Below, piece after piece: positions 1 to 42,916 of a stretch of 53,156 nt of DNA. The notes under the pieces were generated by a model. The model saw only the letters and a program-made list of their open reading frames with translations, had not been told where the DNA came from and did not search any database. Both the position numbers and the translations under genes were made by a program. Position 1 is the stretch's first letter. Each line of letters begins with the position of its first letter. Source of the DNA: a virus; the IMG/VR virus record IMGVR_UViG_3300047494_000008, positions 1-53,156 of that record; one strand, written 5' to 3'.

Positions 1-11
1 TAAAGGGTGTT

Positions 12-143
12 TTAGTTCCGCCAACCTTGGGCATGATACCAAAGCAAAAGCCGGTTAAGGTTCTCCAGGAAGTCTCGCTTTTCGGCGAGGGCGATCCGGC
101 GATCAATGATAGAGGCGAGTGAAACGGCGTGGCGTTGGCGCAT
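12..143 (-). CDS. Possible 43-residue protein of unknown function
   Basis: An open frame of 43 codons runs from an ATG at 143 to TAA at 12-14. It is rich in Arg and Leu, is predicted helical by composition, and ends with HAQGWRN. No family is recognised. It lies downstream of the 225-residue gene on the same strand, separated by the perfect hairpin at 177-202. The ribosome binding site is poor (only GGA about 8 bases before ATG). It could be a real small gene read through the hairpin, or a chance frame. No longer frame competes with it in this stretch. Confidence 0.4.
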   Translation of the reverse strand: MRQRHAVSLASIIDRRIALAEKRDFLENLNRLLLWYHAQGWRN

Positions 144-167
144 GTGAGGGTCCAATCAATGATAGAG
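102..167. repeat. Direct repeat ATCAATGATAGAG, two copies
   Basis: The 13-mer ATCAATGATAGAG occurs at 102-114 and again at 155-167, 53 bases apart. Each copy contains the palindrome ATCAATGAT that recurs through the window. The first copy lies inside the possible 43-residue gene and the second just upstream of it, so they may be operator sites rather than coding constraint. Confidence 0.75.
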
Positions 168-176
168 AGAAGCAAA

Positions 177-202
177 GCTTGGTAGGTTTGAACCTACCAA
201 GC
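177..202 (-). terminator. Perfect 12-bp hairpin after the 225-residue gene
   Basis: GCTTGGTAGGTT (177-188) pairs perfectly with AACCTACCAAGC (191-202). On the leftward transcript it falls 14 bases after the stop codon of the gene ending at 216 and is followed by TTTGCTT, a weak U-tract. It is probably a leaky terminator, or a protein-binding inverted repeat: the same TTGGTAG core forms inverted repeats at 972-995 and 48452-48473. Confidence 0.6.
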
Positions 203-215
203 GGGGCGATCAATG

Positions 216-893
216 TTAGCCTTCAAGCGCCTCAATCGCCTTAAGGGCGGCGACGTTGTGGGCGATCAAGTCACGGATCGCCGCGCCCTTGTCGCCCTTA
301 AGGTTCGCCACGTTCGCCTTGCCGACTTGGGAAAGGCTCGCCACGATTGCGCCGATTTGCGCCGTGACGTCATTAAGTGTGGGAAGCTTGGTCGCCACGA
401 AAGCTTGCGGGGCGATAGGCGCGGGCGGCGCGCTAACAGTGTTAGCAGGCGAGGGCGACTTGTCGCTGGCAGGCGGGCCATTGGGAACGCGCGGCTTGCG
501 CGGCCCCTTGCGAGCCTTGGATGCATTGGCGCTTTCGACGCCGTGCGAGGCGAGAAAATCGCTCCAGTGTGCGCCCGCCGTCTTATAGTCGCGTTGTTCG
601 GCTTCCGTGCGCTTCTCTTTCCCTTTGATGATACCCGTAGGCGCTTGCAACGTCTTATCCATCATTGCGACGGCGCGCGACTTGGCGTGGCCCTTACGTT
701 CCAGCCATGCGACGCAAGAGGCGATGCGAATAAGATTGAAGGACGTGGCGTCAGTAGCGCGGCGAATGAGCGCCGCGATAACGTCGGCCTTGCTATCCTC
801 GACGCTGTAGGCGTTGGAAAACGTCGTGACGATAAGCGCCGTATCGTCCTTAAGGTTCGGGACGTTGGCGACAGTCTTGGTAGCCTTGGCCAT
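216..893 (-). CDS. Unknown 225-residue protein, first gene behind the leftward promoter
   Basis: The start is set at ATG 893 (MAKATKTV), 9 bases after AAGGA; longer in-frame starts up to 938 lack a binding site and would begin at the promoter itself. The N-terminal ~95 residues look like a folded alpha/beta or helical domain with DDTALIVTTFSN and a segment ending in AWLERKGHAK. It is followed by a basic stretch (KGKEKRTEAEQRDYK), a Pro/Ala-rich linker and a C-terminal helical tail ending AALKAIEALEG. I do not recognise the family. It is the only gene certainly expressed from the promoter at 937-965, whose spacer holds the genome-wide palindrome, and its own coding sequence carries two more copies (209 and 435). 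Autoregulation, or a regulatory role, is therefore an attractive but unproven inference. Confidence 0.8.
   Translation of the reverse strand: MAKATKTVANVPNLKDDTALIVTTFSNAYSVEDSKADVIAALIRRATDATSFNLIRIASCVAWLERKGHAKSRAVAMMDKTLQAPTGIIKGKEKRTEAEQRDYKTAGAHWSDFLASHGVESANASKARKGPRKPRVPNGPPASDKSPSPANTVSAPPAPIAPQAFVATKLPTLNDVTAQIGAIVASLSQVGKANVANLKGDKGAAIRDLIAHNVAALKAIEALEG
432..446. repeat. 15-bp perfect palindrome GCTAACA-G-TGTTAGC
   Basis: Two 7-base arms flank a central G, inside the coding sequence of the 225-residue protein. It contains AACAGTGTT (435-443), one of the dispersed palindromic sites. Confidence 0.7.
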
Positions 894-913
894 GTGCGTT
901 AATCCTTGTGTAG

Positions 914-931
914 CTCGCCACCATTGGCGAG
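914..931 (-). promoter_or_regulatory. 5' leader hairpin
   Basis: CTCGCCA (914-920) and TGGCGAG (925-931) form a perfect 7-bp stem with a 4-base loop. With the promoter at 937-965, transcription should begin near 930, so the leftward mRNA would start with this hairpin, upstream of the AAGGA of the gene starting at 893. A 5'-terminal stem often protects mRNA from decay; that role here is inference. Confidence 0.5.
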
Positions 932-936
932 ACCAC

Positions 937-965
937 ACTATGCGACATCATTGATGGCATGTCAA
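937..965 (-). promoter_or_regulatory. Leftward sigma-70-like promoter with palindromic operator in the spacer
   Basis: On the minus strand the sequence reads TTGACA (965-960, perfect -35), a 17-base spacer, and CATAGT (942-937, four of six matches to TATAAT). Predicted start is near 930. The spacer contains ATCATTGAT (947-955), the palindrome found 33 times in the window, placed right next to the -35 element. Just upstream are an inverted repeat (972-995) and a tandem repeat (1003-1055). A protein bound at 947-955 would block RNA polymerase. Confidence 0.75.
947..955. promoter_or_regulatory. Putative operator ATCATTGAT
   Basis: A copy of the A-W-C-A-N-T-G-W-T palindrome inside the 17-base spacer of the leftward promoter; flanked by C and G it forms an 11-base palindrome, CATCATTGATG. 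Confidence 0.55.
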
Positions 966-971
966 ATAACC

Positions 972-995
972 TTTGGTAGGATGCAAGCTACCAAA
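972..995. promoter_or_regulatory. Inverted repeat TTTGGTAG/CTACCAAA upstream of the leftward promoter
   Basis: TTTGGTAG (972-979) and CTACCAAA (988-995) are perfect 8-base arms separated by 8 bases. It sits 7 bases upstream of the -35 element at 960-965, a normal place for an activator or repressor. The arms match the cores of the inverted repeats at 177-202 and 48452-48473. Confidence 0.55.
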
Positions 996-1002
996 CCCTG
1001 AC

Positions 1003-1055
1003 CAACTTAGTTGATGGAGTTTGGTTGACAACTAAGGTTGATGGAGTTTGGTTGA
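1003..1055. repeat. Two tandem 26/27-bp repeats in the divergent control region
   Basis: Copy 1 (1003-1028) and copy 2 (1029-1055) lie head to tail without a gap. Both contain the identical 19-mer GTTGATGGAGTTTGGTTGA (1010-1028 and 1037-1055), preceded by CAACTTA or CAACTAAG. They stand between the leftward promoter and the rightward gene at 1322. Possible roles are regulator binding sites or replication iterons; two copies are few for an origin. A perfect TTGACA (1025-1030) spans the junction, but no good -10 follows. Confidence 0.8.
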
Positions 1056-1321
1056 TCGCGTCGAGCGGGTCGGCGTCGCGTCGCCAGGCTGGCAGCGCCA
1101 TAGGTTGCTTTTTCGCACCCCCCAGGGTGGCCAAGGGGATTTCGCGCGGACCATACGGGCCATACCCCTAAGCCGTACAGCCTAGCCGATTTTTCGTTTT
1201 CCATCACCTCCCTCAACCCTCACGGACATTACGTCCAGCCTAATAGAAATCGCCCCTCGAAAATTTTTTAGAGTATAGATGGAAGGCGCTAACCGCGTAC
1301 CCCACTTAGAGGACCTCAAGC
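1056..1321. other. Non-coding stretch upstream of the gene at 1322
   Basis: No convincing gene on either strand. It holds a C/G-rich block (CACCCCCCAGGGTGG near 1117) and an AT-rich patch (AAAATTTTTTAGAGTATAGAT, 1260-1280) that may supply a -10 (TATAGA, 1274-1279) but has no matching -35 at 17 bases. A promoter for 1322-1633 is expected somewhere here. Confidence 0.5.
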
Positions 1322-1633
1322 ATGACCACCACGATCATCGTCTCGCCCAATGAGCATCCCATCCTGGTCACTCTCAACCAGAGCAACGAGCACAACGGCC
1401 TGCACTTCTCGAACTACAGCCAGCAAATCCTGCTCCCCGGCGATCCCAAGCAGCAGTTCCATATCAGCAAGGGCGGGTCCATCGTCGTGGACGAACTGGA
1501 AGTTGACGATGAGCGCGCCCAGAAAGAGCGTGAGAAGCGCAACCCAGCGCGTGGGTTCACCAAGCCCGATGACTATGGCCACGAACTCATGAGGGAGGAA
1601 GAACGCGCACGCGCGCGTGCCCCAGCCGACTGA
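1322..1633 (+). CDS. Unknown 103-residue protein in the control region
   Basis: ATG at 1322 follows AGAGGA with about 8 bases of spacing. The first ~60 residues (TIIVSPNEHPILVTLNQ) look like beta-strands, while the last 40 are highly charged and helical (DDERAQKEREKRN, MREEERARARAPAD). No family is recognised. It stands alone between the leftward promoter and the structural operon, with a long stable hairpin (1652-1680) after its stop. The opposite-strand frame covering it is a GC-rich shadow lacking a binding site. Its isolated position in the control region makes a regulatory role possible, but no DNA-binding motif is visible. Confidence 0.75.
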   Translation: MTTTIIVSPNEHPILVTLNQSNEHNGLHFSNYSQQILLPGDPKQQFHISKGGSIVVDELEVDDERAQKEREKRNPARGFTKPDDYGHELMREEERARARAPAD

Positions 1634-1651
1634 GAAAGTCAATCCCCTAAT

Positions 1652-1680
1652 ATCCCTGGATTGCGAAGCGATCTAGGGAT
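1652..1680 (+). terminator. 13-bp stem with 3-base loop after the 103-residue gene
   Basis: ATCCCTGGATTGC (1652-1664), loop GAA, and GCGATCTAGGGAT (1668-1680) pair along 13 positions with two G-U pairs. It lies 18 bases after the stop codon at 1633. No U-run follows directly; a TTTT appears about 30 bases later. Likely a 3'-end-stabilising hairpin or an inefficient terminator. Confidence 0.45.
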
Positions 1681-1803
1681 GTCCAGTGCCTCGGGAGAAC
1701 CCTGATTTTCCTGGGGCAAATGTGGCCATCAACAATGATGCAGGCACTTAAGTGTTTGTAATCTCATCAATCTAGCGTTTGGTAAAACCACCACAGGGTC
1801 GCC

Positions 1804-1832
1804 TTGATATAACCCCTCCATTCATGTATAAC
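1804..1832 (+). promoter_or_regulatory. Rightward sigma-70-like promoter of the structural operon
   Basis: TTGATA (1804-1809, five of six), a 17-base spacer and TATAAC (1827-1832, five of six) form the best rightward promoter seen. Predicted start is near 1839. There is no other gene before the small terminase at 2008, so this should drive the packaging and virion genes. The palindrome AACATTGAT (1830-1838) overlaps the -10 and the start point. Confidence 0.75.
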
Positions 1833-1838
1833 ATTGAT
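1830..1838. promoter_or_regulatory. Putative operator AACATTGAT over the -10/+1 region
   Basis: A copy of the dispersed A-W-C-A-N-T-G-W-T palindrome covering the end of the -10 hexamer and the predicted transcription start. Another copy (AACAATGAT, 1731-1739) lies about 65 bases upstream of the -35. Occupancy would occlude the promoter. Confidence 0.55.
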
Positions 1839-1852
1839 GGCGGTGCGGCGGA

Positions 1853-1919
1853 CTTGCCAGCACCTCCAACCCTTGGTAGAAGAGTGTTGCGGGTGCTTCG
1901 GGCGACGGGGGCTGGCAAG
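1853..1919 (+). promoter_or_regulatory. Candidate antiterminator stem in the leader of the structural operon
   Basis: CTTGCCAGC (1853-1861) is exactly complementary to GCTGGCAAG (1911-1919), with 49 bases between. The 3' arm is shared with the terminator stem at 1907-1947, so the two structures cannot form together. This is the standard layout of an attenuator. What would switch it (protein, ribosome, ligand) is unknown. Confidence 0.45.
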
Positions 1920-1954
1920 GGTGATTGGTCTCCCCTTGTCGGCCCCTTCGTTTT
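1907..1954 (+). terminator. Intrinsic terminator in the leader upstream of the small terminase
   Basis: Bases 1907-1921 pair with 1933-1947 over 15 positions (CAAGGG with CCCTTG at the loop end, GGGG with CCCC at the base, three G-U pairs), loop 11 bases. TTCGTTTT (1947-1954) follows as an imperfect U-tract. It lies after the promoter at 1804-1832 and before the gene at 2008, so it would cut off the structural operon unless the alternative stem 1853-1861/1911-1919 forms. Confidence 0.55.
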
Positions 1955-2007
1955 AACGCCAGGGCGAAGCCCTTGCGTTGCCGCTTTCCATCGCTAGGAT
2001 GGGTCCC

Positions 2008-2442
2008 ATGAGCGCGCTTGCTTTAGTCACTGATCCGTCCACATTTGGTTGGCCGCCCGGTCTCCCTTTCGAGCTTGCTTTACGTCAAGCGAAGCCGAGC
2101 GAGGTCTGCCAATCTTACGGATTGGCGAAGTCGGATTATGTTCGTCTATGCAACGATCCCGCGTTTATCGAAGCTCTTGAGGACGCGTGCGAGCAGGTTA
2201 AAAGAGAGGGCGTGACCTTCCGCAAGAAAGCTCAGGTCCAGGCCGAAGAGTTGCTCAAGACAAGCTGGACGCTCATTCACGAGAGCTTCGAGAACGTGCC
2301 CGCCAAAGTGAAGGCCGATCTCATCATGTGGACGCAGCGCATCGCGGGCTACGACGCCAGCCTCGATCAGAAAGCCCTTGCCCAGGCGAGCGCCGTGCAA
2401 CAAAACGCTCTCCAGATCATTATAAACTTAGGCGACGCCTAA
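2008..2442 (+). CDS. terS: Probable terminase small subunit
   Basis: ATG 2008 follows AGGA (1996-1999) with 8 bases of spacing; the in-frame ATG at 1999 overlaps that binding site. The 144-residue protein has an N-terminal helix-turn-helix-like segment (PSEVCQSYGLAKSDYVRL), then a charged helical region and an Ala/Gln-rich C-terminal tail. This is the usual plan of small terminases, which bind the packaging site and feed DNA to the large subunit encoded at 3565. Assignment rests on position (first gene of the head operon, three small genes before TerL), length and HTH pattern, not on a diagnostic motif. Confidence 0.6.
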   Translation: MSALALVTDPSTFGWPPGLPFELALRQAKPSEVCQSYGLAKSDYVRLCNDPAFIEALEDACEQVKREGVTFRKKAQVQAEELLKTSWTLIHESFENVPAKVKADLIMWTQRIAGYDASLDQKALAQASAVQQNALQIIINLGDA

Positions 2443-2523
2443 GCAGAGGGCATAACCTTGCGCGCTGACTGGCTCTACGCCATACCGGATCGCCCGATCA
2501 AGGGCGCACTAGGAGAGAGACCC

Positions 2524-3057
2524 ATGGCCGACGACCCCAACAACGGCGCAGCCGCCAACACGGACGCCGAGACCACGCAGTTCAAGCCCGACCCCAAAGC
2601 CAAGAACGGCAAAGCCCCGCCCCAGACGCGCGCGGGCGTGGCCGACGCAGCCGCCGATCCCGACGCTCCGCAGCCCGACACGACCGGCGACGTGGATCAC
2701 TCGCACGACGAAACGCACCTGACCGACAACACGACCATCAACGATCCCAACCAGGGCGTGACCGAGGACGACGCCGAGGACATCGCCGAGAAGAACGCCT
2801 ACGAGCGCGCCCACCCAGGCTCGCTGGGGCTCATCACCGAGCCCGAGCACGCGCTGCCCGTGCTGCGCGCCAAGGTCAACGAGTTGCACTCGTTGATGAA
2901 CAACATCGGCAACGTCGCCGAGGTGCCGATCCACGCCATCGAGGCGCTGGGCGCGGACATCGGCTATCTCCTGCGCATGTTCCGCCACGGCGGCCAGAAC
3001 GCGGGCCTGCCCAAGCCGGCCCCGATCATGACCCAGCAACCCGCACCGAAGGCTTAA
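2524..3057 (+). CDS. Unknown 177-residue acidic head-module protein
   Basis: ATG 2524 is preceded by AGGAGAG. The first ~100 residues are low-complexity, rich in Asp, Ala, Pro and Thr, and look disordered. A more ordered helical C-terminal part follows (ALPVLRAKVNELHSLMNNI and an EALGADIGYLLRMFRHGG segment). No family is recognised. It lies between the small and large terminase genes, so a packaging or head accessory role is possible. Confidence 0.75.
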   Translation: MADDPNNGAAANTDAETTQFKPDPKAKNGKAPPQTRAGVADAAADPDAPQPDTTGDVDHSHDETHLTDNTTINDPNQGVTEDDAEDIAEKNAYERAHPGSLGLITEPEHALPVLRAKVNELHSLMNNIGNVAEVPIHAIEALGADIGYLLRMFRHGGQNAGLPKPAPIMTQQPAPKA

Positions 3058-3063
3058 GCGACC

Positions 3064-3294
3064 ATGGCGCATGAGGTGGTCTGCCCTCTGGGCCTATGTC
3101 GGCTGGAGCAGGATTGTCCCCATGCGCCATGCCTTGGGTGCATGGCGCGGCTGAGGGAGCACATGCTGGCCGAGCTAGGCGTGCTGGAGCGGCAGGAGAA
3201 GATCGCCGCCGGGCGCATGGACACCGATGGCCAGAAGGCGCTGGGCAAACTCCTGGACAGCCTGGCGGGCCTGGTCGAGAACCCGCCGGTTTGA
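3064..3294 (+). CDS. Small Cys-rich (putative zinc-binding) protein
   Basis: A 76-residue frame from ATG 3064, six bases after the preceding stop. The N-terminus holds five cysteines (CPLGLCRLEQDCPHAPCLGC), a spacing that suggests zinc binding, followed by a charged helix. The binding site is weak (AAGG about 11 bases upstream), so translation may be coupled to the gene before it. Function unknown. Confidence 0.6.
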   Translation: MAHEVVCPLGLCRLEQDCPHAPCLGCMARLREHMLAELGVLERQEKIAAGRMDTDGQKALGKLLDSLAGLVENPPV

Positions 3295-3295
3295 T

Positions 3296-3317
3296 TTAAT
3301 CACGAACCTGTGATTAA
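3296..3317. promoter_or_regulatory. AT-rich inverted repeat between small genes
   Basis: TTAATCAC (3296-3303) and GTGATTAA (3310-3317) are perfect 8-base arms around a 6-base loop, between the genes ending at 3294 and starting at 3344. It is notably AT-rich for this genome and no U-tract follows. It could be an operator or an mRNA-stabilising hairpin. Confidence 0.45.
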
Positions 3318-3343
3318 CCACGGGGGCACCTTGGAGACCTCCG

Positions 3344-3556
3344 ATGCCCTTGCGCCTCATGATCCTGCACGACGAAGCCGTCGAACTTCTCCACGAGATC
3401 AAGCAGCGTGAGGACTATATCTCGGTGCTCGAACTGGAGAACCTGCGCCTGCGCCTGCGGCTCAAGATCATTGTTGGCGGGGCCAAGGGCTTGATTATCT
3501 GGAGCGTATCACTCATGATTGTAGGGCTTGTCATGGGACCCAGCCAGCTTGTCTGA
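3344..3556 (+). CDS. Small membrane protein, unknown function
   Basis: A 70-residue protein from ATG 3344, preceded by GGAGA with 8 bases of spacing. A Leu/Arg-rich amphipathic helix (LELENLRLRLRLK) is followed by a hydrophobic segment of about 20 residues near the C-terminus (GLIIWSVSLMIVGLVMG), so it is probably a single-pass membrane protein. It lies directly before the large terminase gene. No family recognised; a holin-like role cannot be excluded but nothing supports it. Confidence 0.65.
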   Translation: MPLRLMILHDEAVELLHEIKQREDYISVLELENLRLRLRLKIIVGGAKGLIIWSVSLMIVGLVMGPSQLV

Positions 3557-3564
3557 GTGTATTA

Positions 3565-5046
3565 GTGTCCAGCATAATCGAATACACGCCTCCACGAACA
3601 CTAAAAGGGTTCATCCGCGATCACAAGCTGGATGAGCTTTTCTATGACTGGGTGGTTGGTCCCGTAGGGTCGGGCAAGACGACTGCGATCTTCATGAAGC
3701 TGGTGGTGATGGCGCAGCTACAGGCCGCCAGCCCCGATGGGATACGCAGGACGCGCGCGGTGATCGTGCGCAATACCATGCCCCAGTTGAAGGACACGAC
3801 CCTCATAAGCTGGGGATACTGGTTCAAGGATGGCCAGGCCGGCGACTGGAACGCCACCGACAAGATTTTCACGCTGCGCTTCGCCGACGTCGAGTGCATC
3901 GTCATGTTCCGGCCCCTGGACACCCCCGATGACATATCCCGCGTCCTGTCGCTCGAAATCAACTTTGCCATCATTGATGAGTTTGTGGAAATCCCCCGCG
4001 CGATTGTCGATGCTCTCAGCGCGCGCCTGGGCCGCTACAAGCAGCCTGATGGAACCCCCGTCACCATCTACGGCATGTGGGGCTCATCCAACCCTTCGAC
4101 GGAAGATAATTGGTGGTACGATTATCTGCACGGACCCGACGTTATCAGGTGGAACAAAGACAAAGAGGTGATGGCGCTCAATAACCCAGATCTGGAATTG
4201 AACGCCAAATACTTCCACCAGCCCAGCGCGCTCTTGGAGAACGAGCGCGAGAACGTCGAGAACCTGCCCGGCAAGGCGAAATACTATACGAACGTTATGA
4301 AGGGCAAGAGCAATGTCTGGATCAAGCAATTCGTGGAAGCTGAATGGGGGTTCAGCGTATCGGGCCAGCCTGTCGTGCCTGGCTTTCGCGATCACCACCT
4401 GGCGCGCAAGCCGCTCAAGTTCGAGCCCAGCCTGCCCCTGGTGATCGGCTTCGATCCTGGCCTGGGCGGCTCTGCGTTCATCTTCCTCCAGATGGACCTG
4501 GATGGGTTCGTCAACGTCCTGGGCGAGCTTGTGCAGGAAGGCTACGGCGCGGTTCGTCTCATCAACGAGCGTCTCCAACCAACTATGCGGCTCAGGTTCT
4601 ACGACGCCACGCGCGTCATCATCGCGGCGGACCCGGCGTCGAAGCAGCGCGCCAGCACTGATGAGCGGTCCACAGTTAGGATGTTCGAGGATCACTATGA
4701 CATCAAGACGGAGAGCAACAACCGCTTCCCCCTGCGCCTCAACGCCATTGACCATTTCGTCAATCTTAACATCCTGGGTGAGCCTTGCTTGCGGATCGAC
4801 CCCCAGCAATGCCCCATTCTTGTTCGCGCTCTTAAAGGCGGCTGGCGCTACGGGGCCGACGTCAAAAAAGACATCCTGAAAGGGGCCGAGCCTGAGAAAA
4901 ACAAGTTCTCGCACCCTGGCGACGCGTTCGGCTACGGCTTGCGGTTCTTCCACAAAGGGTTAATCAGGGACGAAAAGCACGGTACGCGCGTGGGCACGCT
5001 GACCCAGCGTATGCCTGAGTTTAAGAACAACTACGTCTGGAGATAG
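3565..5046 (+). CDS. terL: Terminase large subunit (DNA-packaging ATPase-nuclease)
   Basis: 493 residues. It begins at GTG 3565; no ATG occurs before the ATPase motif. Walker A is GPVGSGKT (residues 32-39) and Walker B is IIDE (136-139). The C-terminal RNase H-like nuclease shows the Asp of GFDPGLGG (D297), a second acidic strand (VIIAADPASK) and the late SHPGDAFGYG motif. All core motifs are intact. The protein pumps DNA into the prohead through the portal encoded next and cuts the concatemer. The binding site before the GTG is weak, suggesting low expression or coupling to the gene ending at 3556. The stop codon is separated by two bases from the portal start. Confidence 0.95.
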   Translation: MSSIIEYTPPRTLKGFIRDHKLDELFYDWVVGPVGSGKTTAIFMKLVVMAQLQAASPDGIRRTRAVIVRNTMPQLKDTTLISWGYWFKDGQAGDWNATDKIFTLRFADVECIVMFRPLDTPDDISRVLSLEINFAIIDEFVEIPRAIVDALSARLGRYKQPDGTPVTIYGMWGSSNPSTEDNWWYDYLHGPDVIRWNKDKEVMALNNPDLELNAKYFHQPSALLENERENVENLPGKAKYYTNVMKGKSNVWIKQFVEAEWGFSVSGQPVVPGFRDHHLARKPLKFEPSLPLVIGFDPGLGGSAFIFLQMDLDGFVNVLGELVQEGYGAVRLINERLQPTMRLRFYDATRVIIAADPASKQRASTDERSTVRMFEDHYDIKTESNNRFPLRLNAIDHFVNLNILGEPCLRIDPQQCPILVRALKGGWRYGADVKKDILKGAEPEKNKFSHPGDAFGYGLRFFHKGLIRDEKHGTRVGTLTQRMPEFKNNYVWR

Positions 5047-5048
5047 CG

Positions 5049-7259
5049 ATGGCCATGTATGCAAGCGCCGTGGCGTCGGCCCCGGCGGAAATGATGCCGG
5101 AAGGCGTGGACGTCCCCAACAACAAGGATGCGCCGGTCAAGCGTATATCGGGCGCGGAGCTTCGCCAGCTTGGCCAGAACCTCTCGTCCCTGTTCGGGGC
5201 CTATAAGAACGACCGCCGACTGTTCGAGCTTCGGATGCTGCGCAACCAGCGGCAATATCTCGGCGTCTACGATCCCGAACTGGAGCAGGAGTTGAGCGTC
5301 AACCGCTCGCGCGCCTACCCCAGGATCACGCGGGTCAAGATCGTGTCGATCCTGTCGCGCCTCATGGACCTGATGTTCCAAGGCAACGAGCGCAACTGGG
5401 AGGTCAAGGCGCAGCCGTGGCCGGAAATGACCATGGACGAAATGCAGGAGGCGATGGAGGCGGCCATGCAGGCTGACCAGGCCGCGCAGGTTCCGACGCC
5501 CAACCCGCCCGACGTCGATTACATCATGGGCGCGGTGCAGACCTACGCGGATCGCCGCGCGGAGCAGATGTCGAAGTTGATTGACGATCAACTCCAGGAA
5601 CTCGGCGGGAGCCAGAAGAAAGATTACGTGGCGTTGAACCGGGCCGTCATCCGGTCGGGCCTCATTTACGGCGTCGGCGTTCTGCGCGGCCCATTCGCGC
5701 GCAAGAGCCAGAGCGTGATCTGGAACTTCGACAATCCGAAAATGCCCGTGCCTCGCAAGATCGAGGTGTTCAAGCCGATGTTCGAGTGGCTCAACCTCTG
5801 GGACTTCTACCCCGACATGAGCGCCAAGAGCATCGAGAGCATGGACGGCTATTTCATCCGCCAGATTTTCTCGCGCTCGCAGATCAGGGAGTTGGCCACG
5901 CGCTCCGATTTCATGGCTGACCAAATTCTGGAGTATCTCAAGACGCACGAGGTCGGCAACTACAAGGCCGAGTATTACGAGGCTGAGCTTCGCGCCATGG
6001 GCGTGAAGGCCAACGTCAACGAGCAGAAGCCCGAGACAACCAAGTACGAGGTGCTCTGTTGGCACGGCAAGGTCAGCGGCAACTATCTGACGCTCGCGGG
6101 CGTGGACGTGCCCGAGGATAAGCTGGCCGACGACATGGACGCGGAGATTTGGTTGCTCGACGGCAACGTCATCAAGGCGATCATCAACCCGTGGAAGGAA
6201 CTGGGCGTGGACATGCCCATGATCCACACGTTCATTTTTGACGAGGACGACACGTCGCCGCTGGGCTTCGGCGTGCCGAACTCGATGCGGGACAGCCAGA
6301 TGGCCGTCGCGGCGGCCACGCGCATGTTGATGGACAACGCCAGCGTGGTCTGTGGCCCCAACATCGAGGTCAACACCGATCTGATGCGCCCCGACCAGGA
6401 CTTGAGGAACATCACCTCCTACAAGGTCTGGTATCGTGAGGGCGACGGGCCAGAGGCCCAGTGGCCGGCGGTGCGCAATGTGCAGATCGACAGCCACCTG
6501 GATGACCTGCTCAAGGTCATCGACCTATTCATGAAGTTCGCCGACGCCGAGACCTTCGTGGGTCCCGCGACCGGGGGCGACATGAGCCATGCCCCCAGCG
6601 AGCCGATGCGGACGGCGGCGGGCGCATCCATGTTGCGAGGCGACGCGGCGCTGCCCTTCAAGGACATGATCCGCTCGTTTGATAGCCTGACGCAGAGCAT
6701 CATCTACGCGATGGTGCAGTTCAACCGGCAGTTCAACCCAGAGCTTGCGCCCATGGCCGACTATGACGTCATCGCCAGAGGCGCGACATCATTGATGGCC
6801 AAGGAACTCCGTGGTATGCAGGCCGATCAGTTGGTCAGCACGCTCACCCCCGAAGAGAAGCAGGAGGTGGACATGCGCAAGCTGATCCTGGCCCGCCTGA
6901 AATCCAGGGATATGGAGGACATCCTTGTTGATATGTCGGAGAGCAAGCGCCGGTCGGCGCAGCAAGCCCAGACGGCGGCTCAGACGGCGGATCAACAGAA
7001 CCGCATGATGGAGGCCAACATCCGCAAGATATTGTCGGACGGCTTCAAGAACATCGCTAGTGGCCAGATGCACGTTTCCAGTGCAGACGCCACGAGCGTC
7101 GCCACGGCAATGGACGTACTGGAAAGGGGCATAAGCAATGGCGTCATACAAGGAGGCGGAGTGGACCCTAATCAAGTCCTTAAACCTGAGCTATCAGGGG
7201 TCGGACCAGGCGCTAATGGTCCTGGTGGACCTGCTCCAGCTTCGGCTGGCCAAGCGTAA
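5049..7259 (+). CDS. Portal protein
   Basis: 736 residues, starting two bases after the terminase stop with GGAGAT just before ATG 5049. The N-terminal third is helical and acidic with Met-rich segments (MTMDEMQEAMEAAMQ), followed by a segment typical of podovirus portals (NRAVIRSGLIYGVGVLRGPF) and a wing-type core (FEWLNLWDFYPDMS). The C-terminus is Gln-rich helical and then Gly/Pro-rich (GPGANGPGGPAPASAGQA). Length, position between terminase and scaffold, and these motifs support the call. Twelve copies form the ring through which DNA passes. Confidence 0.9.
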   Translation: MAMYASAVASAPAEMMPEGVDVPNNKDAPVKRISGAELRQLGQNLSSLFGAYKNDRRLFELRMLRNQRQYLGVYDPELEQELSVNRSRAYPRITRVKIVSILSRLMDLMFQGNERNWEVKAQPWPEMTMDEMQEAMEAAMQADQAAQVPTPNPPDVDYIMGAVQTYADRRAEQMSKLIDDQLQELGGSQKKDYVALNRAVIRSGLIYGVGVLRGPFARKSQSVIWNFDNPKMPVPRKIEVFKPMFEWLNLWDFYPDMSAKSIESMDGYFIRQIFSRSQIRELATRSDFMADQILEYLKTHEVGNYKAEYYEAELRAMGVKANVNEQKPETTKYEVLCWHGKVSGNYLTLAGVDVPEDKLADDMDAEIWLLDGNVIKAIINPWKELGVDMPMIHTFIFDEDDTSPLGFGVPNSMRDSQMAVAAATRMLMDNASVVCGPNIEVNTDLMRPDQDLRNITSYKVWYREGDGPEAQWPAVRNVQIDSHLDDLLKVIDLFMKFADAETFVGPATGGDMSHAPSEPMRTAAGASMLRGDAALPFKDMIRSFDSLTQSIIYAMVQFNRQFNPELAPMADYDVIARGATSLMAKELRGMQADQLVSTLTPEEKQEVDMRKLILARLKSRDMEDILVDMSESKRRSAQQAQTAAQTADQQNRMMEANIRKILSDGFKNIASGQMHVSSADATSVATAMDVLERGISNGVIQGGGVDPNQVLKPELSGVGPGANGPGGPAPASAGQA

Positions 7260-7371
7260 AGACGATCTTATGAAGGCTCGTCCTGAGACCTTCATGGCTA
7301 TTCAAGGGGACTGCAACGCCCTAAACGAGTTGCTTGAGGATATTGTTGTTCAACGCAAGGCAGGAAACTAA
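7138..7371 (+). CDS. Unknown 77-residue helical protein overlapping the portal gene
   Basis: Starts at ATG 7138 inside the portal gene in another frame (122 bases of overlap), after AAAGGGG at good spacing, and ends 3 bases before the scaffold gene. The product is helical (ALMVLVDLLQLRLAKRKDDL). The overlapped part of the portal encodes its low-complexity Gly/Pro tail, which tolerates a second reading frame. Function unknown; position suggests a head accessory protein. Confidence 0.6.
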   Translation: MASYKEAEWTLIKSLNLSYQGSDQALMVLVDLLQLRLAKRKDDLMKARPETFMAIQGDCNALNELLEDIVVQRKAGN

Positions 7372-7374
7372 GTC

Positions 7375-8373
7375 ATGGCCAAACTCCCTACCGAAACCTC
7401 CGTCGCGGCCCTTTCTGCGGCTCTGGCGGCCCCTGCGGTCGAAAAAGACGACTTCGCGGACGCGTTCGCGAACTTCACGAGCGAGAAGCCCGACCTCACG
7501 GAGACCCAGCCAGACGCGACAGCGCAGGCCGCTGACGGCAAAGAGGCCGCTGAGGGCACCGAAGGGACCGAAACCGAGATCGAGGGCGCTCCTGGGGCTG
7601 GAGACGAGGGCCTGACGGCTGAGCAGATCGCCGAGAAGGCGGAGGCCGACGCGGCGAAGGCGGAAGCGGACGCGGCTGCGGCCCTGGAGGCGGCCAAGAA
7701 AGCCCCGACCGACGACGCGGTGACGCGTCTGGCCGACATGCTGGCCGAGCGCACCAAGCCCGCTCCGCAACAGGTGGACAACCGCAACCAGCCTGAGCCG
7801 CTCTACACCACCCAGGAGGTGGCCAAGCTCACCGAGTTCTACAAGGAATGGCCTGAGGTCGCCCCGGCGGTGGAAATCCTGCTCAAGGGCGCGATGACCA
7901 ACATCACCAACCATATCTTCGCGGAGGTCGCCAAGACGCTGGCACCAAGGATGCGGCTTCTGGAGCAGTTGGCGGACAACTTCCAGTACCAGGAGATCAC
8001 CAGGACGATCCCCGATTACAATGAGCAGTTGCACGCGGACGTTACCAAATGGATTGAAGGCCAGAAAGGATACTTGAAAGCCGCCTACACCAATGTTATG
8101 CAGGAAGGGACGGTTGACGATTTCAATGATCTCGTCGCCCGTTACCGGCAGGAGACAGGCAAGGCAGCGCCCGCCAACACTGGGAACGCACCCCAGCAAG
8201 GCGGCACAACCAAGCCGGCTCCTGCCGCTGCACTGACCCCAGCCGCCAAAAAAGCGGCGGCTGCGTTGGCCCCAGTGAATAGCAAGCGTTCGGGATTGGT
8301 CGAGGTCGAGCCTCAGGGTTACGACGACGCGTTCGACAAATTCGCCGCAGACGCTTTCGCCAAGACTGGCTAA
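7375..8373 (+). CDS. Probable head scaffolding protein
   Basis: 332 residues from ATG 7375 with AGGAAAC upstream. The N-terminal half is acidic and rich in Ala and Glu (AEKAEADAAKAEADAAAAL), predicted coiled coil or disordered. The middle is helical, and the tail is Ala/Pro-rich, ending with a folded-looking element (VEVEPQGYDDAFDKFAADAF). Composition and position directly before the major capsid gene are typical of scaffolds that shape the prohead and then leave. No protease motif is seen, so release rather than cleavage is likely. Confidence 0.75.
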   Translation: MAKLPTETSVAALSAALAAPAVEKDDFADAFANFTSEKPDLTETQPDATAQAADGKEAAEGTEGTETEIEGAPGAGDEGLTAEQIAEKAEADAAKAEADAAAALEAAKKAPTDDAVTRLADMLAERTKPAPQQVDNRNQPEPLYTTQEVAKLTEFYKEWPEVAPAVEILLKGAMTNITNHIFAEVAKTLAPRMRLLEQLADNFQYQEITRTIPDYNEQLHADVTKWIEGQKGYLKAAYTNVMQEGTVDDFNDLVARYRQETGKAAPANTGNAPQQGGTTKPAPAAALTPAAKKAAAALAPVNSKRSGLVEVEPQGYDDAFDKFAADAFAKTG

Positions 8374-8394
8374 CCAACCAAGGGGTTCTGAATT

Positions 8395-9459
8395 ATGGCT
8401 GCTGCTGTTACTTCCTACGGCGACATTTCTCCGGCGGTCGCCGCCTACTCGGTCGTGCGGATGCTCACCCGCGCGATCCCGCTTCTCCAGTTGGAGCGGT
8501 TCGGACAGACCTACCCTCTGCCCACCAACTCCACCCAGACGGCGAAGTTTCGTCGTTACTTCCTGTCCGGCGCGAGCGGGTCGGCGGGTCCCGACAACGG
8601 CATCAATGGCGGCTCGCCGTTCAGCACGCCCCTCGCCATTACGCCGCTGGTCGAAGGCGTGACGCCCACGGGCTCCATGCTGGCCAACCAGGACTACACG
8701 GTTCAGTTGGCGCAGTACGGCGACTTCGTGACCATCACGGACGTCATCGTGGACACCCACACCGATCCGGTCCTGGCGCAGATCAGCGAAATCCTCGGCG
8801 AGCAGGCGGCCCAGACGGTCGAGACCTTGCGCTTCAACGTGCTCAAGGCCGGCACCAACGTGTGGTACGCCAACAATGTTGGCTCGCGATCCGCCGTCAT
8901 CACGGCGATCGCGCTGGCCGATCAGCGGCGCGTCTCCACCGGCCTCAACCGGCAGAACGCGAAAAAGATCACCACGGTCGTGGGTTCCACCCCGGCCTAC
9001 GCCACGAAGTCGGTGGAAGCCGCGTACATGGCGGTGGTGCACCCCGATCTCGAAACCGACATCCGCTCGATGGCCGGGTTCGTGCCGGTCGCCAGCTACG
9101 GTCCCCACACCTCGCCGTTCGAGGGCGAGATCGGGTCGGTCGAGCAGGTCCGCTATCTCCAGTCCACCATCATCGCTCCGTTCGTCAGCGCGGGCGGCAC
9201 CACGGGCGCAGCGACGACGTTCCGCTCCACGGACGGCGCTCACAACGACGTCTACCCGGTTCTCATCTTTGCGCGCGACAGCTTCGGCATCGTCCCGCTC
9301 AAGGGCAAGTCCGCGATGACGCCGATGGTGGTCAACCCCAAGCCGGCTCCCGGCGATCCCCTGGGCCAGCGCGGCACCGTGGGCTGGAAGCTCTGGACCA
9401 CGACGGTCATTCTCCAGGATGCGTTCCTGGCCCGATTGGAAGTCGCCTGCACGATGTAA
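8395..9459 (+). CDS. Major capsid protein, N4-gp56 family
   Basis: 354 residues from ATG 8395, with a strong AAGGGG upstream. It shows the family's signature order: an N-terminal helix ending LERFGQTYPLP, a strand with AKFRRY, then EGVTPTGSML, QYGDFVTITDV, HTDPVLAQISEILGEQAAQT and LRFNVLKAGTNVWYA. Near the C-terminus are the conserved GEIGSVEQVRY and HNDVYPVLIFARDSFG. It builds the HK97-fold shell. An intrinsic terminator follows at 9465-9489, probably separating abundant capsid message from later genes. Confidence 0.95.
   Translation: MAAAVTSYGDISPAVAAYSVVRMLTRAIPLLQLERFGQTYPLPTNSTQTAKFRRYFLSGASGSAGPDNGINGGSPFSTPLAITPLVEGVTPTGSMLANQDYTVQLAQYGDFVTITDVIVDTHTDPVLAQISEILGEQAAQTVETLRFNVLKAGTNVWYANNVGSRSAVITAIALADQRRVSTGLNRQNAKKITTVVGSTPAYATKSVEAAYMAVVHPDLETDIRSMAGFVPVASYGPHTSPFEGEIGSVEQVRYLQSTIIAPFVSAGGTTGAATTFRSTDGAHNDVYPVLIFARDSFGIVPLKGKSAMTPMVVNPKPAPGDPLGQRGTVGWKLWTTTVILQDAFLARLEVACTM
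8869..8883. repeat. 15-bp perfect palindrome GCCAACA-A-TGTTGGC in the capsid gene
   Basis: Two 7-base arms around a central A, containing the dispersed site AACAATGTT (8872-8880), inside the major capsid coding sequence. Confidence 0.65.
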
Positions 9460-9464
9460 CACTG

Positions 9465-9489
9465 ATGGGGGCTTAGGCCCCCGTCTTTT
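9465..9489 (+). terminator. Intrinsic terminator after the capsid gene
   Basis: GGGGGC (9467-9472), loop TTAG, GCCCCC (9477-9482), extended by an A-T and a T-G pair, then GTCTTTT. It lies 5 bases after the capsid stop codon. Since 27 bases remain before the next gene, that gene depends on read-through. Confidence 0.85.
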
Positions 9490-9515
9490 GCTCTCCAGGC
9501 TCAAGGGGCCACGAT

Positions 9516-9911
9516 ATGACCATCAATGTTATCGACACCATGTTCCACGGTTCCTCGTTCCCGCCCTCCTACACGGGGCCGGGTACGCTGATTGGGAACG
9601 TGCGCAACGCCGCGTCGGTCATCAATCAGACCTGCGGCAACTACACCTCCAACGGCAACGCCACTCAGATCAACCTGGGTTTCCGGCCCACCTACATTCG
9701 GTTCTTCAACCTGACGGACGACATTTCCTGGGAGTGGATGTCGGGCTTCGGCGCGACCCAGAGCATCAAAACAGTCGGTGCGGGCACCATGACCGTGGAC
9801 ACCGGCTCCGCGTTCACGCTGACGGACGGCGGCTCGGGCAACTGGACGCTCACCACCAGCACCACGCTGGAGGGCACCGCCAAGGCGCTCGTGTTCAGCA
9901 TCGAGGGTTAA
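9516..9911 (+). CDS. Putative virion (head decoration-like) protein
   Basis: 131 residues from ATG 9516, preceded by AAGGGG. The sequence is rich in Thr, Gly, Ser and Asn with beta-strand pattern (FRPTYIRFFNLTDDISWEW, and LTTSTTLEGTAKALVFSI at the end). No cysteine pair, no helix. Position directly after the capsid and a dedicated pair of flanking terminators suggest an abundant structural protein such as a decoration protein; family not recognised. Confidence 0.7.
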   Translation: MTINVIDTMFHGSSFPPSYTGPGTLIGNVRNAASVINQTCGNYTSNGNATQINLGFRPTYIRFFNLTDDISWEWMSGFGATQSIKTVGAGTMTVDTGSAFTLTDGGSGNWTLTTSTTLEGTAKALVFSIEG

Positions 9912-9934
9912 CCCACCTCCCACAGGTTAGGGTC

Positions 9935-9963
9935 ATGGGGGGCCGCGAGGTCCCCCATTTTTT
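9935..9963 (+). terminator. Strong intrinsic terminator with GNRA-type loop
   Basis: ATGGGGGGCC (9935-9944) pairs with GGTCCCCCAT (9949-9958) around the tetraloop GCGA, followed immediately by TTTTT (9959-9963). This is the most canonical terminator in the window. It is the second within 500 bases; together they bracket 9516-9911. Confidence 0.9.
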
Positions 9964-9976
9964 CTTGGGGAGTTCG

Positions 9977-10273
9977 ATGGGAGAGTACGGCATGAACTCT
10001 GATTGCTGCGTCCGCATCGAGCGGTTCGCTAACGGCTTCACTGTTGAGATCAAGGACCCAGCCATTGTGAAATACAATGCGCTGCCCTACGATCCCAAGA
10101 AATCGCGGCCATACAAAGAGCCGTGGAAACCCTTTGTGTTCAAGACTGCGGAGGAAGTGATAACCTTCCTGACGAAGAACTTGAAGAAAGCCATGGTCTC
10201 CAAGAGTGGAGACGATGCTGACGAGTTTTCAACGGCCTGGAATATGGCCACAACGGAGAGCGACGATGGTTGA
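9977..10273 (+). CDS. Unknown 98-residue protein
   Basis: ATG 9977 follows GGGGAG closely; a second ATG at 9992 is also usable. The product looks globular (RIERFANGFTVEIKDPAIV, then a basic PYDPKKSRPYKEPWKPF stretch and a helix). The family is not recognised, although small proteins with a VRRFTNGFTVE-like start are common in phage head operons. Its last 8 bases overlap the next gene. Confidence 0.75.
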   Translation: MGEYGMNSDCCVRIERFANGFTVEIKDPAIVKYNALPYDPKKSRPYKEPWKPFVFKTAEEVITFLTKNLKKAMVSKSGDDADEFSTAWNMATTESDDG

Positions 10274-10607
10274 TCTAGGAAATAACCTCAGCCCGCAGGA
10301 CGGCGCACCGCCCCCGGCTCGGCGTCAGGGCAAGAACATGGGTCCGCTGCGGGGCCAGAAAACCCAGCGCATCATGGTTGAAGAGAGTTCGGAAATCCCG
10401 CCCACAGGCTTGTTTGTCGGCGTCAACGGTTACGGCTACATGATCAAGCCGGGCGTTGTGATCGACGCGCCCATGGCGGTGATCGAGGTGCTCAATAACG
10501 CCATCATCACGGTGCCCATCGTGAACCCCGACACCTTGCAGATCACAGGCACGCGCTCACGTCGGCGGTTTTCCTACCGCTCGATGGAAGGTGTGGCGCT
10601 CGATTAA
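10266..10607 (+). CDS. Unknown 113-residue protein
   Basis: Start set at ATG 10266 (MVDLGNNLSPQDG) after GGAGAG; it overlaps the end of the preceding gene by 8 bases. A basic, Pro/Arg-rich N-terminus (APPPARRQGKNMG) precedes a beta-rich domain (GLFVGVNGYGYMIKPG, TVPIVNPDTLQITGTRSRRR). Likely a small structural or head-completion protein by position. Family not recognised. Confidence 0.7.
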   Translation: MVDLGNNLSPQDGAPPPARRQGKNMGPLRGQKTQRIMVEESSEIPPTGLFVGVNGYGYMIKPGVVIDAPMAVIEVLNNAIITVPIVNPDTLQITGTRSRRRFSYRSMEGVALD

Positions 10608-10617
10608 CTGGAGAACA

Positions 10618-11403
10618 ATGATGCTTCTCGGCGAACTGCTCACAGAGTTGCGGGATAACCAACTCCGCGACAAATCCGATCAGGTCGCCGGGAGCGCGTC
10701 CGACCAACTATGGACGGACGACACGTTGATCAGGTATATCAGTCAAGCACAAAGCAAATTTGCGACGTTGACGTCGTGCATACGTGACGCATCGACTCCA
10801 GCGGTTTGTCAGCTTAAAGTCGTGCCGTTGACGCCCAGTATCTTTTCGCTGCACCCTAGCGTCATTGCTGTCTTGTCGGCGCGCTATCCTGACGACCACG
10901 CGGACCTCGCGCGCACGAGCCACGACGTATTCAACAACTACCACACGCCAGATCGAAGGTTTTACGACAGCGCGTATCTGACGAGCTATACGCCTGGCAA
11001 GCCGCTCGCCTACAGCACGGACGAGGGCATGGCTCAGGATGACTATGGCGCGTTTAATACGATGACTTTTCGCACCTACCCCGATGTCGGGGCTGGCTTC
11101 GGGGCCACCATCGCGCTGCGTGTGATCCGTCGTCCAATCAACCATCTGAGCACGGCGAACCTGAACGCACGGCTGGAAATCCCCGAGCACTACCACATGG
11201 ACATTCTCGATTGGGCGGGCTACCTCGCGCTGCGGGGTCCTGATCTCGACGTGGCAGGGGGCGACGGCAAGGGCACCGCCGACAAGTTGAGGGCGAGTTT
11301 CATGCAGACCATCAAGGATGCGAAGCGCGACATGCAGCGCCGGATGTTTGCGCCGATGGTCTGGGACTTCGGACGCAACGGCTTTTCTTACGAGAGGGAC
11401 TGA
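10618..11403 (+). CDS. Putative head-to-tail adaptor (DUF6682-like)
   Basis: 261 residues; ATG 10618 has GGAG just upstream and a second ATG follows at once. The opening (LLGELLTELRDNQLRD...) and the LWTDDTLIRYISQAQSKFA motif resemble phage adaptor proteins that plug the portal, which begin with a helix and a W-x-D-x-x-L-x-R-Y-I segment. The rest is mixed alpha/beta with Tyr-rich loops. In short-tailed phages the adaptor ring joins portal and tail. Its stop codon overlaps the next start (TGATG). Confidence 0.6.
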   Translation: MMLLGELLTELRDNQLRDKSDQVAGSASDQLWTDDTLIRYISQAQSKFATLTSCIRDASTPAVCQLKVVPLTPSIFSLHPSVIAVLSARYPDDHADLARTSHDVFNNYHTPDRRFYDSAYLTSYTPGKPLAYSTDEGMAQDDYGAFNTMTFRTYPDVGAGFGATIALRVIRRPINHLSTANLNARLEIPEHYHMDILDWAGYLALRGPDLDVAGGDGKGTADKLRASFMQTIKDAKRDMQRRMFAPMVWDFGRNGFSYERD

Positions 11404-12404
11404 TGGCTCAAGTTCTCAATTTCGATCAGGCGCTCAGCAACGCTCAGGCGGCTCCGGCGTCGCCCGTGGACCCTACCCTGGTCCAGCCGGCGAACTCGGA
11501 GTGGATGAACCCGCCCCAGCCCCAAGCCGTGGGTCCTGGCCTGCCCTCGTTCGCGCTGAACATGAAGCCGCCGCCGGCTGCGCCTGTGGGCGACCCCACG
11601 CGGTCGGGCCTCTACAACCTTCTGTCGGGCATGAGCAACAACATTGCTGACCCGGCTGCGGGCGAGGTGCCCGGCGTCCCCGTGAACGATCCGACGACGG
11701 CGCACCAGAAGAACATCCAGGCGTTGACGACTGCGCCGGGGCCGCTCGACTATCTCGGCAACTTCGTGGCCGGCGACGCCAAAGGCAAGGCTGCGCTCGA
11801 TGCGCAGGGCCAGACGGCGACGACGATCAACAACAACCCGCACATGCTGGCGTATCTGAACGCCAACCCTGGCGCGGCGGCTCAGGCGGTCGGCAATCCC
11901 AAAGTGATCGGTGGGCTCCAGGACGCGTTCGACGCGGCGGTGGCGGCGTCCAAGACGCAGCACCTTTACGACAGCGGCGACGGTCGTGCGTTCACCAAGA
12001 CGATGACGCCTGAGCAATCAATGCACGTTGCGGCGCAGGCGAAGATCACCGGTGAGGACCCGGCGGCGATCCACGCGGTTGCGCATCATGGCGACTTCAC
12101 GGACCAGGAGTTCGAGGACGCCACCAAGAACCTTTCGTGGGACCAGATGACCAAGTTGGTTGGTCTTCAGCACTATCTGACGCCTCAGCAACAGTTGGTG
12201 CCGGCGTATCTGGGGCAACTCCACTCGCAGTCGCAGGCGGCGGATAAGGCGCTCGCGGACGCGCAGGCGGCGAATATGGCTCCGGCCAAGCTCAAGGAAC
12301 TCCAGGCGGCGGCGGTCAAGGCCAAGGGCGACCGCGATGCGGTGATCCAAAAGCTGATCGAGGGCCAGAGCGTGATCTACCCGAACTCCGCTATCAGTCA
12401 GTGA
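11403..12404 (+). CDS. Unknown virion protein, 333 residues
   Basis: Begins at ATG 11403 in a TGATG overlap with the adaptor gene. The N-terminal ~150 residues are Pro/Ala/Asn-rich (QAAPASPVDPTLVQP) and likely flexible. The C-terminal half is helical with Gln and Ala repeats (SQSQAADKALADAQAANM). The composition resembles that of internal (ejected) proteins of short-tailed phages, which also precede a giant internal protein. No enzyme motif seen. Confidence 0.65.
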   Translation: MAQVLNFDQALSNAQAAPASPVDPTLVQPANSEWMNPPQPQAVGPGLPSFALNMKPPPAAPVGDPTRSGLYNLLSGMSNNIADPAAGEVPGVPVNDPTTAHQKNIQALTTAPGPLDYLGNFVAGDAKGKAALDAQGQTATTINNNPHMLAYLNANPGAAAQAVGNPKVIGGLQDAFDAAVAASKTQHLYDSGDGRAFTKTMTPEQSMHVAAQAKITGEDPAAIHAVAHHGDFTDQEFEDATKNLSWDQMTKLVGLQHYLTPQQQLVPAYLGQLHSQSQAADKALADAQAANMAPAKLKELQAAAVKAKGDRDAVIQKLIEGQSVIYPNSAISQ

Positions 12405-12413
12405 GGTTAGTTG

Positions 12414-34326: not shown

Positions 34327-34337
34327 GGAGATCAATG

Positions 34338-42716: not shown

Positions 42717-42916
42717 TTTAATCTCCCATCTGTTGGTTGGTAGGGGTTACCCTGGGCGTATCGCCGCGCCACGATGTTGTAGAGCGACGACACGCAGACA
42801 TCGCAGATTGCGTTGTCCTGTTCGGGGTTGACGAACATTATCTCCCGTTCCTCACGGGGGGATTTGCAAAAATCGCAACGGGGAGCCGGCCCCCCGTCCA
42901 CTTTATCCTGACCCAT
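42713..42916 (-). CDS. Small zinc-finger protein (two CxxC pairs)
   Basis: 67 residues as drawn from ATG 42916. A GTG at 42901 has a better binding site (AGGA four bases upstream) and may be the true start. CDFC and CDVC, 20 residues apart, form a C4 zinc site flanked by charged residues. The first 79 bases overlap the end of the SGNH hydrolase gene in another frame. Similar tiny C4 proteins in phages often bind host enzymes or DNA; no role can be assigned here. Confidence 0.65.
   Translation of the reverse strand: MGQDKVDGGPAPRCDFCKSPREEREIMFVNPEQDNAICDVCVSSLYNIVARRYAQGNPYQPTDGRLN

Follow-up and report, generated by a model that had tools for sequence, protein, structure and literature searches.

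The sequence AACATTGAT at positions 1830-1838, which overlaps the end of the -10 element and the expected start point of a promoter candidate, is a copy of a dispersed palindromic motif, A.CANTG.T (second and eighth bases free), which occurs 63 times in the window, that is, in the whole 53,156-nucleotide stretch of viral DNA analysed here (IMG/VR record IMGVR_UViG_3300047494_000008). Judging from sequence comparison, we consider the chances about even that these copies serve, across the whole genome, as recognition sequences bound by a ribbon-helix-helix (RHH) protein encoded by the phage. The preliminary description of this DNA had seen in the same palindrome a site where a bound protein would block initiation, and had taken this as the plausible meaning of the dispersed motif. 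The palindrome is real, and far stronger than was claimed there, its meaning however does not appear to lie in promoter blocking.

The window carries, on the + strand, a probable small terminase gene, the first of the structural operon (2008-2442; tblastn identity of 36-53% to the gene that precedes the large terminase gene in 28 relatives), the gene for the terminase large subunit (3565-5046; phrog_2, E 1.6e-27) and that for the major head protein (8395-9459; phrog_1357, E 2e-58). On the - strand there are genes for a family A DNA polymerase (49936-52314; PF00476, E 3.5e-37) and for a dCTP deaminase (52587-53135), the latter being the final gene of the contig, which breaks off within the early block. 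A longer palindrome, TTGGTAG-N8-CTACCAA, is present in three exact copies in or near early genes (179-200, 973-994 and 48452-48473). A small protein encoded at 44688-45191 (- strand) contains a stretch resembling a helix-turn-helix (E about 0.004 with several Pfam HTH models) and has no relative in 12 other genomes by tblastn, and the product of 42838-43353 (- strand) appears membrane-anchored and, by eye, GDSL/SGNH hydrolase-like (GDSIAAGTG), with no significant Pfam match. Rfam searches gave no match, and neither did an annotated phage collection queried with the nucleotide sequence of positions 1-15000, nor a scan for exact copies of the left end of the window.

The dispersed motif in the window and its relatives

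Against the 63 copies of A.CANTG.T in the window, four control patterns of the same composition occur 1 to 9 times. When ATCAWTGAT was allowed up to one mismatch, 49 matches were found versus 5.7 in shuffled sequences, and none of 100 shuffles contained as many. Under an order-2 Markov model, no odd 9-mers are more enriched than ATCANTGAT (15 copies versus 0.6 expected) and AACANTGTT (7 versus 0.2). The motif may be written as a core, A.CA-N-TG.T, with a fuller consensus near CATCANTGATG.

We used a synonymous shuffle, in which codons are permuted within each gene, so that both the proteins and the codon usage are kept. With our own gene calls, 48 copies lie in genes of the window, while 200 such shuffles gave a mean of 3.3 and a maximum of 10. 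Among 1728 palindromic patterns assessed against the same null, A.CANTG.T ranks first in the window (z of 22) and in four diverged relatives described below, namely G002 (26.5), G003 (13.4), G015 (9.4) and G001 (7.2). Codon frame 0 holds 38 of the 48 in-gene copies of the window, and the C, T and T of the motif are there third positions; the motif is written where the genetic code leaves room. As genes have acquired copies through synonymous codon choice, selection acts on the motif as DNA. An artefact of codon usage or composition was considered as the source of the A.CANTG.T count and was rejected, five control palindromes of the same composition being near their null values in the window.

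According to a hand-made list of ORFs, 54 of the window's copies lie wholly within ORFs and 9 do not. Noncoding DNA amounts to 1944 nt and carries 4.6 copies per kb, as opposed to about 1.05 in genes, and since our simple gene caller misses small ORFs, noncoding counts obtained with it are inflated. The ratio of variance to mean for copies per 5 kb is 0.74 in the window, 0.60 in G015, 1.22 in G001 and 1.95 in G002. At the left end of the window three copies, at 102, 155 and 209 (102-217), are spaced by 53 and 54 bp, another is found at 435, and in the divergent region ATCATTGAT (947-955) precedes a leftward ORF (216-938) by 9 bp. Besides the copies at 1731 and 1830, discussed below with the promoter candidate, the remaining ones are spread between 3467 and 51253. 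The favoured noncoding spots are the interval between the ribosome-binding site and ATG (AAGGAG-A.CA.TG-ATG), stop codons, and places before terminator-like hairpins. Thus AACACTGAT (9458-9466, + strand) is found at the major head gene's stop codon, and AACAATGAT (10614-10622, + strand) and ATCAATGAT (34331-34339, + strand) each lie between a ribosome-binding site (GGAG and AAGGAG, respectively) and the next gene start. With regard to spacing, three pairs of copies in the window are 53-54 bp apart, and eight pairs in G002 are 45-48 bp apart.

Forty viral contigs were reached through the window's terminase. For 16 of these 40 loci ATCANTGAT was counted over whole records, and 12 of those 16 were read as sequence; seven loci from another set of 80 were read whole, together with the single locus that a DNA polymerase scan yielded. 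In a set of 13 genomes which includes the window, A.CANTG.T occurs 63 times in the window, 44 in G001, 127 in G002, 52 in G015 and 29 in G003, and 1 to 8 times in the other eight. Eight further records, reached via other genes, have 3 to 12 copies, with controls at 5 to 14. Within genes, the counts versus the means of 200 synonymous shuffles are 31 versus 7.9 in G001, 87 versus 6.8 in G002, 44 versus 10.9 in G015 and 24 versus 1.9 in G003, and motif-less genomes are close to their null (4 versus 3.5 in G004, 5 versus 3.4 in G014, 6 versus 5.1 in G009). It should be mentioned that G003, in which the motif is present, is a 32.7-kb contig without the early region.

The form of the motif differs between lineages. 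The central base is G or C in about 95% of the copies of G002 and G003, whereas both kinds occur in the window and A/T prevails in G015, and the outer base is mostly T or A in the window, G001, G002 and G003, and C or A in G015. The motif is common to a group of relatives, its outer and central bases shifting among them. In the terminase tree the strong-motif genomes make up one group (support 80/81), inside which a motif-poor fragment, G012, is nested and outside which G017 falls. We also sought positional conservation of the in-gene copies and found it at few places only: in aligned genes of motif-bearing pairs 0 to 3 places are shared (0.04-0.15 expected), with 14 to 51 sites on either side. 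With so few places shared among so many sites, it is density rather more than position that is kept, and the sites turn over. A copy at the place matching 9458, after the major head gene, is found in G002 (25639), G003 (7568) and G001 (21017).

Among named phages whose head proteins are 35-43% identical, StenR_269 has 27 copies (controls 7-26) and Y3 has 20 (controls 5-9), these being raw counts in genomes of lower G+C, and Rollin was rejected as a bearer, its 8 copies showing no excess over controls of 2-10. ctEw122, reached by another gene, has 23 copies (controls 2-10; raw counts). As to the host group, a weak hint comes from JAGVSR010000100.1, a phage contig with a head protein 76% identical that belongs to the genome bin of an alphaproteobacterium; this phage-like contig has no motif copies in 21 kb, and an RHH search of the same bin gave no match better than E 0.48. 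Other dispersed sequences were seen in relatives. The palindrome CAA-N4-TTG is over-represented in genes of G019 and G022 (47 versus 14.2 and 17 versus 4.8), and early-gene palindromes, namely GTTACA-N3-TGTAAC (11 in G001), CTGGGTAGCTACCCAG (10 in G002) and GATAC-N5-GTATC (8 in G015), often lie just upstream of early genes and are perhaps early operators or promoter elements.

A candidate binder encoded in the early block

Two early genes of relatives, at 7048-7740 in G002 and 35458-36027 in G001, have a C-terminal domain in common which we recognised by eye as RHH. By tblastn it was also detected in G015 and G017. In an hmmsearch of 21 genomes this domain was found only in G001, G002, G015 and G017 (E 2.5e-30 to 2.5e-32; next match E 2.6), with a profile that was built from these same four genomes. 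A viral scan with the domain gave two further contigs: G025, which was left out as independent evidence, being 95-99% identical to G015, and G026, which is 24.8 kb long and related to G017 (short stretches of about 75-83% nucleotide identity). The gene order AAA-RHH-VWA (DUF2201) is present in G001, G002 and G015, the three motif bearers with a complete early region, and in the near-copy G025, and the motif-less G004 and G018 have the AAA and VWA genes without RHH between them. No RHH gene was found in the window, which has none of the AAA, RHH and VWA genes, presumably as the contig stops after the dCTP deaminase gene. Contigs reached via dCTP deaminase contained no RHH domain (one match, E 0.23), nor could the absent part of the early block be recovered from them.

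The presence of the RHH gene may be compared with the strength of the motif in the genomes longer than 60 kb, four of which carry the gene (G001, G002, G015, G017) and seven of which do not (G004, G018-G023). The in-gene z of A.CANTG.T is 7.9 in G001, 37.3 in G002, 17.5 in G015 and 2.3 in G017, as compared to -1.7 to 1.0 in the RHH-less seven. For the core CA.TG the values are 3.2, 11.4, 2.6 and 6.3, respectively, versus -2.0 to 2.6, that of G015 being equal to that of the RHH-less G020. G017 has CA.TG 228 times versus 162 and TCA.TGA 32 versus 11.5, with a preference for TCA(G/C)TGA, and in genes of G026 the corresponding numbers are 77 versus 50.0 (sd 5.3) and 12 versus 5.8. Because the strong bearers are one group and G017 is outside it, the co-occurrence of RHH and motif rests on roughly two independent events. 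In G001 the motif is densest immediately upstream of the RHH gene (three copies in 42 bp), as expected of an autoregulated gene, and in G002 one copy falls on the RHH start codon; no motif cluster was found upstream of the RHH gene in G015, G017 and G026.

The tentative assignment of the fold comes from several individually weak matches. In Pfam the protein matches NikA-like (E 0.0078) and RHH_1 (E 0.14), both weaker than the cut-offs, and the G026 protein matches RHH_1 with E 0.032. ParG, Arc, HP0222, VapB26 and AvtR, the five matches among PDB profiles, are all RHH proteins, with E values of 0.2 to 1.4, singly weak. In an AlphaFold model (mean pLDDT 64.9) two helices are formed at block pLDDT of 72-86, and the strand is not formed in this monomer model. 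The top 16 Foldseek matches are all RHH proteins (E 0.5-1.3), CdbA among them and MatP further down, and the VIA-align list is led by PutA, CopG and Arc, among others (Z 4.4-4.8), with CdbA at Z 4.1 and MatP at Z 3.4. An invariant Gln before the strand of the domain aligns, in a profile alignment, with the Gln residue of Arc, with which Arc reads DNA.

The promoter candidate and alternative explanations

The letters and positions given in the preliminary description were correct: TTGATA is at 1804-1809, followed by a 17-nt spacer, TATAAC at 1827-1832 and AACATTGAT at 1830-1838. This sigma-70-like candidate on the + strand (1804-1832) lies upstream of the rightward structural genes and agrees with the consensus at 10 of 12 positions (TTGATA 5/6 with TTGACA, TATAAC 5/6 with TATAAT). 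It was called the best rightward promoter, and it is in fact alone on the window's + strand in scoring 10/12 or more, whereas the - strand has four such pairs; however, such a pair was present on the + strand of 81 of 1000 Markov-simulated regions of 1069 nt, so that by strength alone the promoter is weakly indicated. A stricter scan, in which the last -10 base had to be T, missed it. By place it is plausible, as it lies upstream of the probable small (2008) and the large (3565) terminase genes. An inverted repeat downstream of it, CTTGCCAGCACC / GGGGCTGGCAAG (1853-1919, arms 43 nt apart), is probably in the leader of the structural operon. When 17 bases of the promoter end were scanned for exactly, three contigs (38-41% G+C) came up; they have no gene in common with the window and were dismissed as chance matches.

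AACATTGAT was also described as a palindrome. It is itself none, yet it is one mismatch away from the odd palindrome ATCANTGAT. A second copy of the motif, AACAATGAT (1731-1739), lies 99 bp upstream of it, and GCCATCAA (1725-1732) and TTGATGGC (1834-1841) are exact reverse complements of each other. If 1804-1832 is a late promoter, a protein bound at 1830-1838 would occlude its -10 and +1 positions, so that local repression is possible, as is looping between the two copies.

The main rival to a genome-organising RHH protein is a stoperator-like mechanism, in which a phage repressor bound at the dispersed sites would stop or damp transcription and keep late genes silent, the copy at 1830 being a true operator. 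In its favour, in five genomes pooled, 21 copies lie in the 3756 nt just upstream of starts (5.6/kb) and 58 in 28670 nt of other noncoding DNA (2.0/kb), versus 236 in 249058 nt of genes (0.95/kb). Noncoding copies are moreover oriented as AACANTGAT along transcription (17 versus 2 in G002, 6 versus 1 in the window), the G001 cluster lies upstream of the RHH gene, and the motif has lineage-specific variants, as stoperators of Cluster A mycobacteriophages are reported to have (PMC6550527). On the other hand, the orientation bias is weak or absent in genes and in noncoding DNA partly results from overlap with the ATG start, most copies are intragenic, and the mechanism needs a repressive state. 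No integrase or resolvase was found in the window (which is incomplete), G001, G002 or G015, and G017 has one integrase-like gene; as the former four have none, no lysogeny to be maintained is evident. We regard this mechanism as unlikely.

Somewhat more doubtful still, in our opinion, is that another protein binds the palindrome, either a host nucleoid protein or the product of the 'WTxxDQ' early gene family (14942-15571 in G002), and that the RHH gene co-occurs with it by descent. The WTxxDQ family has a presence pattern similar to that of RHH, being found also in G001, G017 and G026 and in none of the seven RHH-less near-complete genomes, and the RHH genes of G015, G017 and G026 have no motif copies upstream; the WTxxDQ proteins, however, match no Pfam domain. 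A host protein is opposed by the bin with the related phage, a possible host, which is not enriched (226 ANCANTGNT versus 412 of the reversed control in the 4.0 Mb searched), and by the central and outer bases, whose differences between relatives are not predicted by a conserved host protein.

It is very improbable that the copy at 1830, with that at 1731, acts as a local operator of the late promoter and that all other copies are background. The geometry at 1804-1838 and the two copies 99 bp apart would fit such an arrangement, but the 63 copies of the window, their roughly 15-fold excess over synonymous shuffles in genes and their promoter overlap near chance argue against it. When noncoding sites overlapping -10 to +1 of promoter-like pairs of at least 9/12 were counted, 1 was observed versus 0.50 expected in the window, 4 versus 0.76 in G001, 3 versus 2.04 in G002, 0 versus 0.37 in G015 and 0 versus 0.14 in G003, so that four of the five genomes show no clear excess over chance. 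Since most copies are in genes and the overlap is of this order, promoter blocking does not explain the motif, which needs a genome-wide explanation. The in-gene excess contradicts local operation as an account of the motif, and leaves it a side role that it may have: the copy at 1830 may be an ordinary member of the set, placed where a late promoter could also be blocked. Finally, a site for a phage DNA methyltransferase or other modification, suggested by the motif being palindromic and genome-wide, has hardly any likelihood, as PF01555, PF00145 and PF02086 are absent from nine records, among them the incomplete window and all motif-bearing relatives, and methylation does not require an over-represented site.

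Proposed role and comparison with known systems

Returning to the RHH protein, we propose that a small phage-encoded RHH dimer would recognise A.CANTG.T, its gene lying between the AAA and VWA genes of the early block in relatives and presumably being missing from the window as the contig ends there. The protein might coat and organise the phage genome during infection, as a nucleoid-associated protein does, and, at those copies that lie in promoters or at the starts of genes, might also damp transcription or regulate its own gene. That it mainly occupies the entire genome seems likelier than that it controls one promoter, because the copies are dense, spread, mostly in genes and not fixed in position. 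A broader picture, which we advance tentatively and hold to be possible rather than probable, is that of a virulent podovirus-like phage family with a sequence-specific "chromatin" of its own, having RHH sites every 0.5 to 1.5 kb that arose mostly by synonymous changes, a specificity that drifts (outer T/A/C, centre A/T or G/C), and a sister lineage, G019/G022, using the unrelated CAA-N4-TTG.

Phage sites dispersed over a genome are already known, and so are RHH proteins that organise genomes; we found no account of their combination, with copies that are mostly in genes by synonymous choice and with no visible integrase, in the open-licence literature. There we found no description of a phage RHH protein with dispersed sites, no over-represented palindrome in phage genes beyond the papers cited here, and nothing joining MatP/matS, ribbon-helix-helix and palindromic sites. 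Dispersed binding sites of phages are known mainly as lysogeny operators. If our proposal is true, a dense, mainly intragenic motif kept by selection on synonymous sites in phages with no visible integrase would point to a protein that organises or marks the genome in lytic infection.

Of the known systems, MatP/matS of enterobacteria is alike in that a MatP chain is among both the Foldseek and the VIA matches, its VIA Z being only 3.4. The matS sites are dispersed palindromes with a central N which organise DNA, and they are 13 bp long and confined to one chromosomal domain. CdbA of Myxococcus xanthus resembles the putative phage protein in its RHH fold (by Foldseek and VIA, predicted here), and it is a nucleoid-associated protein binding sequence-specifically at many genome sites with small effects on transcription, thus a bacterial precedent for a genome-occupying RHH protein (PMC7156744). 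It differs in that its motif is a GC-rich direct repeat, that it acts on a bacterial chromosome and that it binds c-di-GMP. In phage SPbeta, MrpR and SPBRE are similar to our case as a repeated element across a phage genome that is bound by one phage protein (PMC10516654), and unlike it as the element is 15 bp long, occurs in about ten promoter regions and is bound by a recombinase-fold prophage repressor. The stoperators of mycobacteriophage Cluster A (L5 clade) are likewise short sites scattered over the phage genome, some of them in promoters, with lineage-specific variants (PMC6550527); they are asymmetric, 13-14 bp long, present at 20-30 per genome, oriented with transcription and bound by a monomer. 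The motif described here differs from them in its 29-127 copies, which are mostly in genes, in its RHH candidate and in that no integrase was found, and it is an odd palindrome rather than an asymmetric site, the symmetric forms ATCANTGAT and AACANTGTT being present in the window in 15 and 7 copies.
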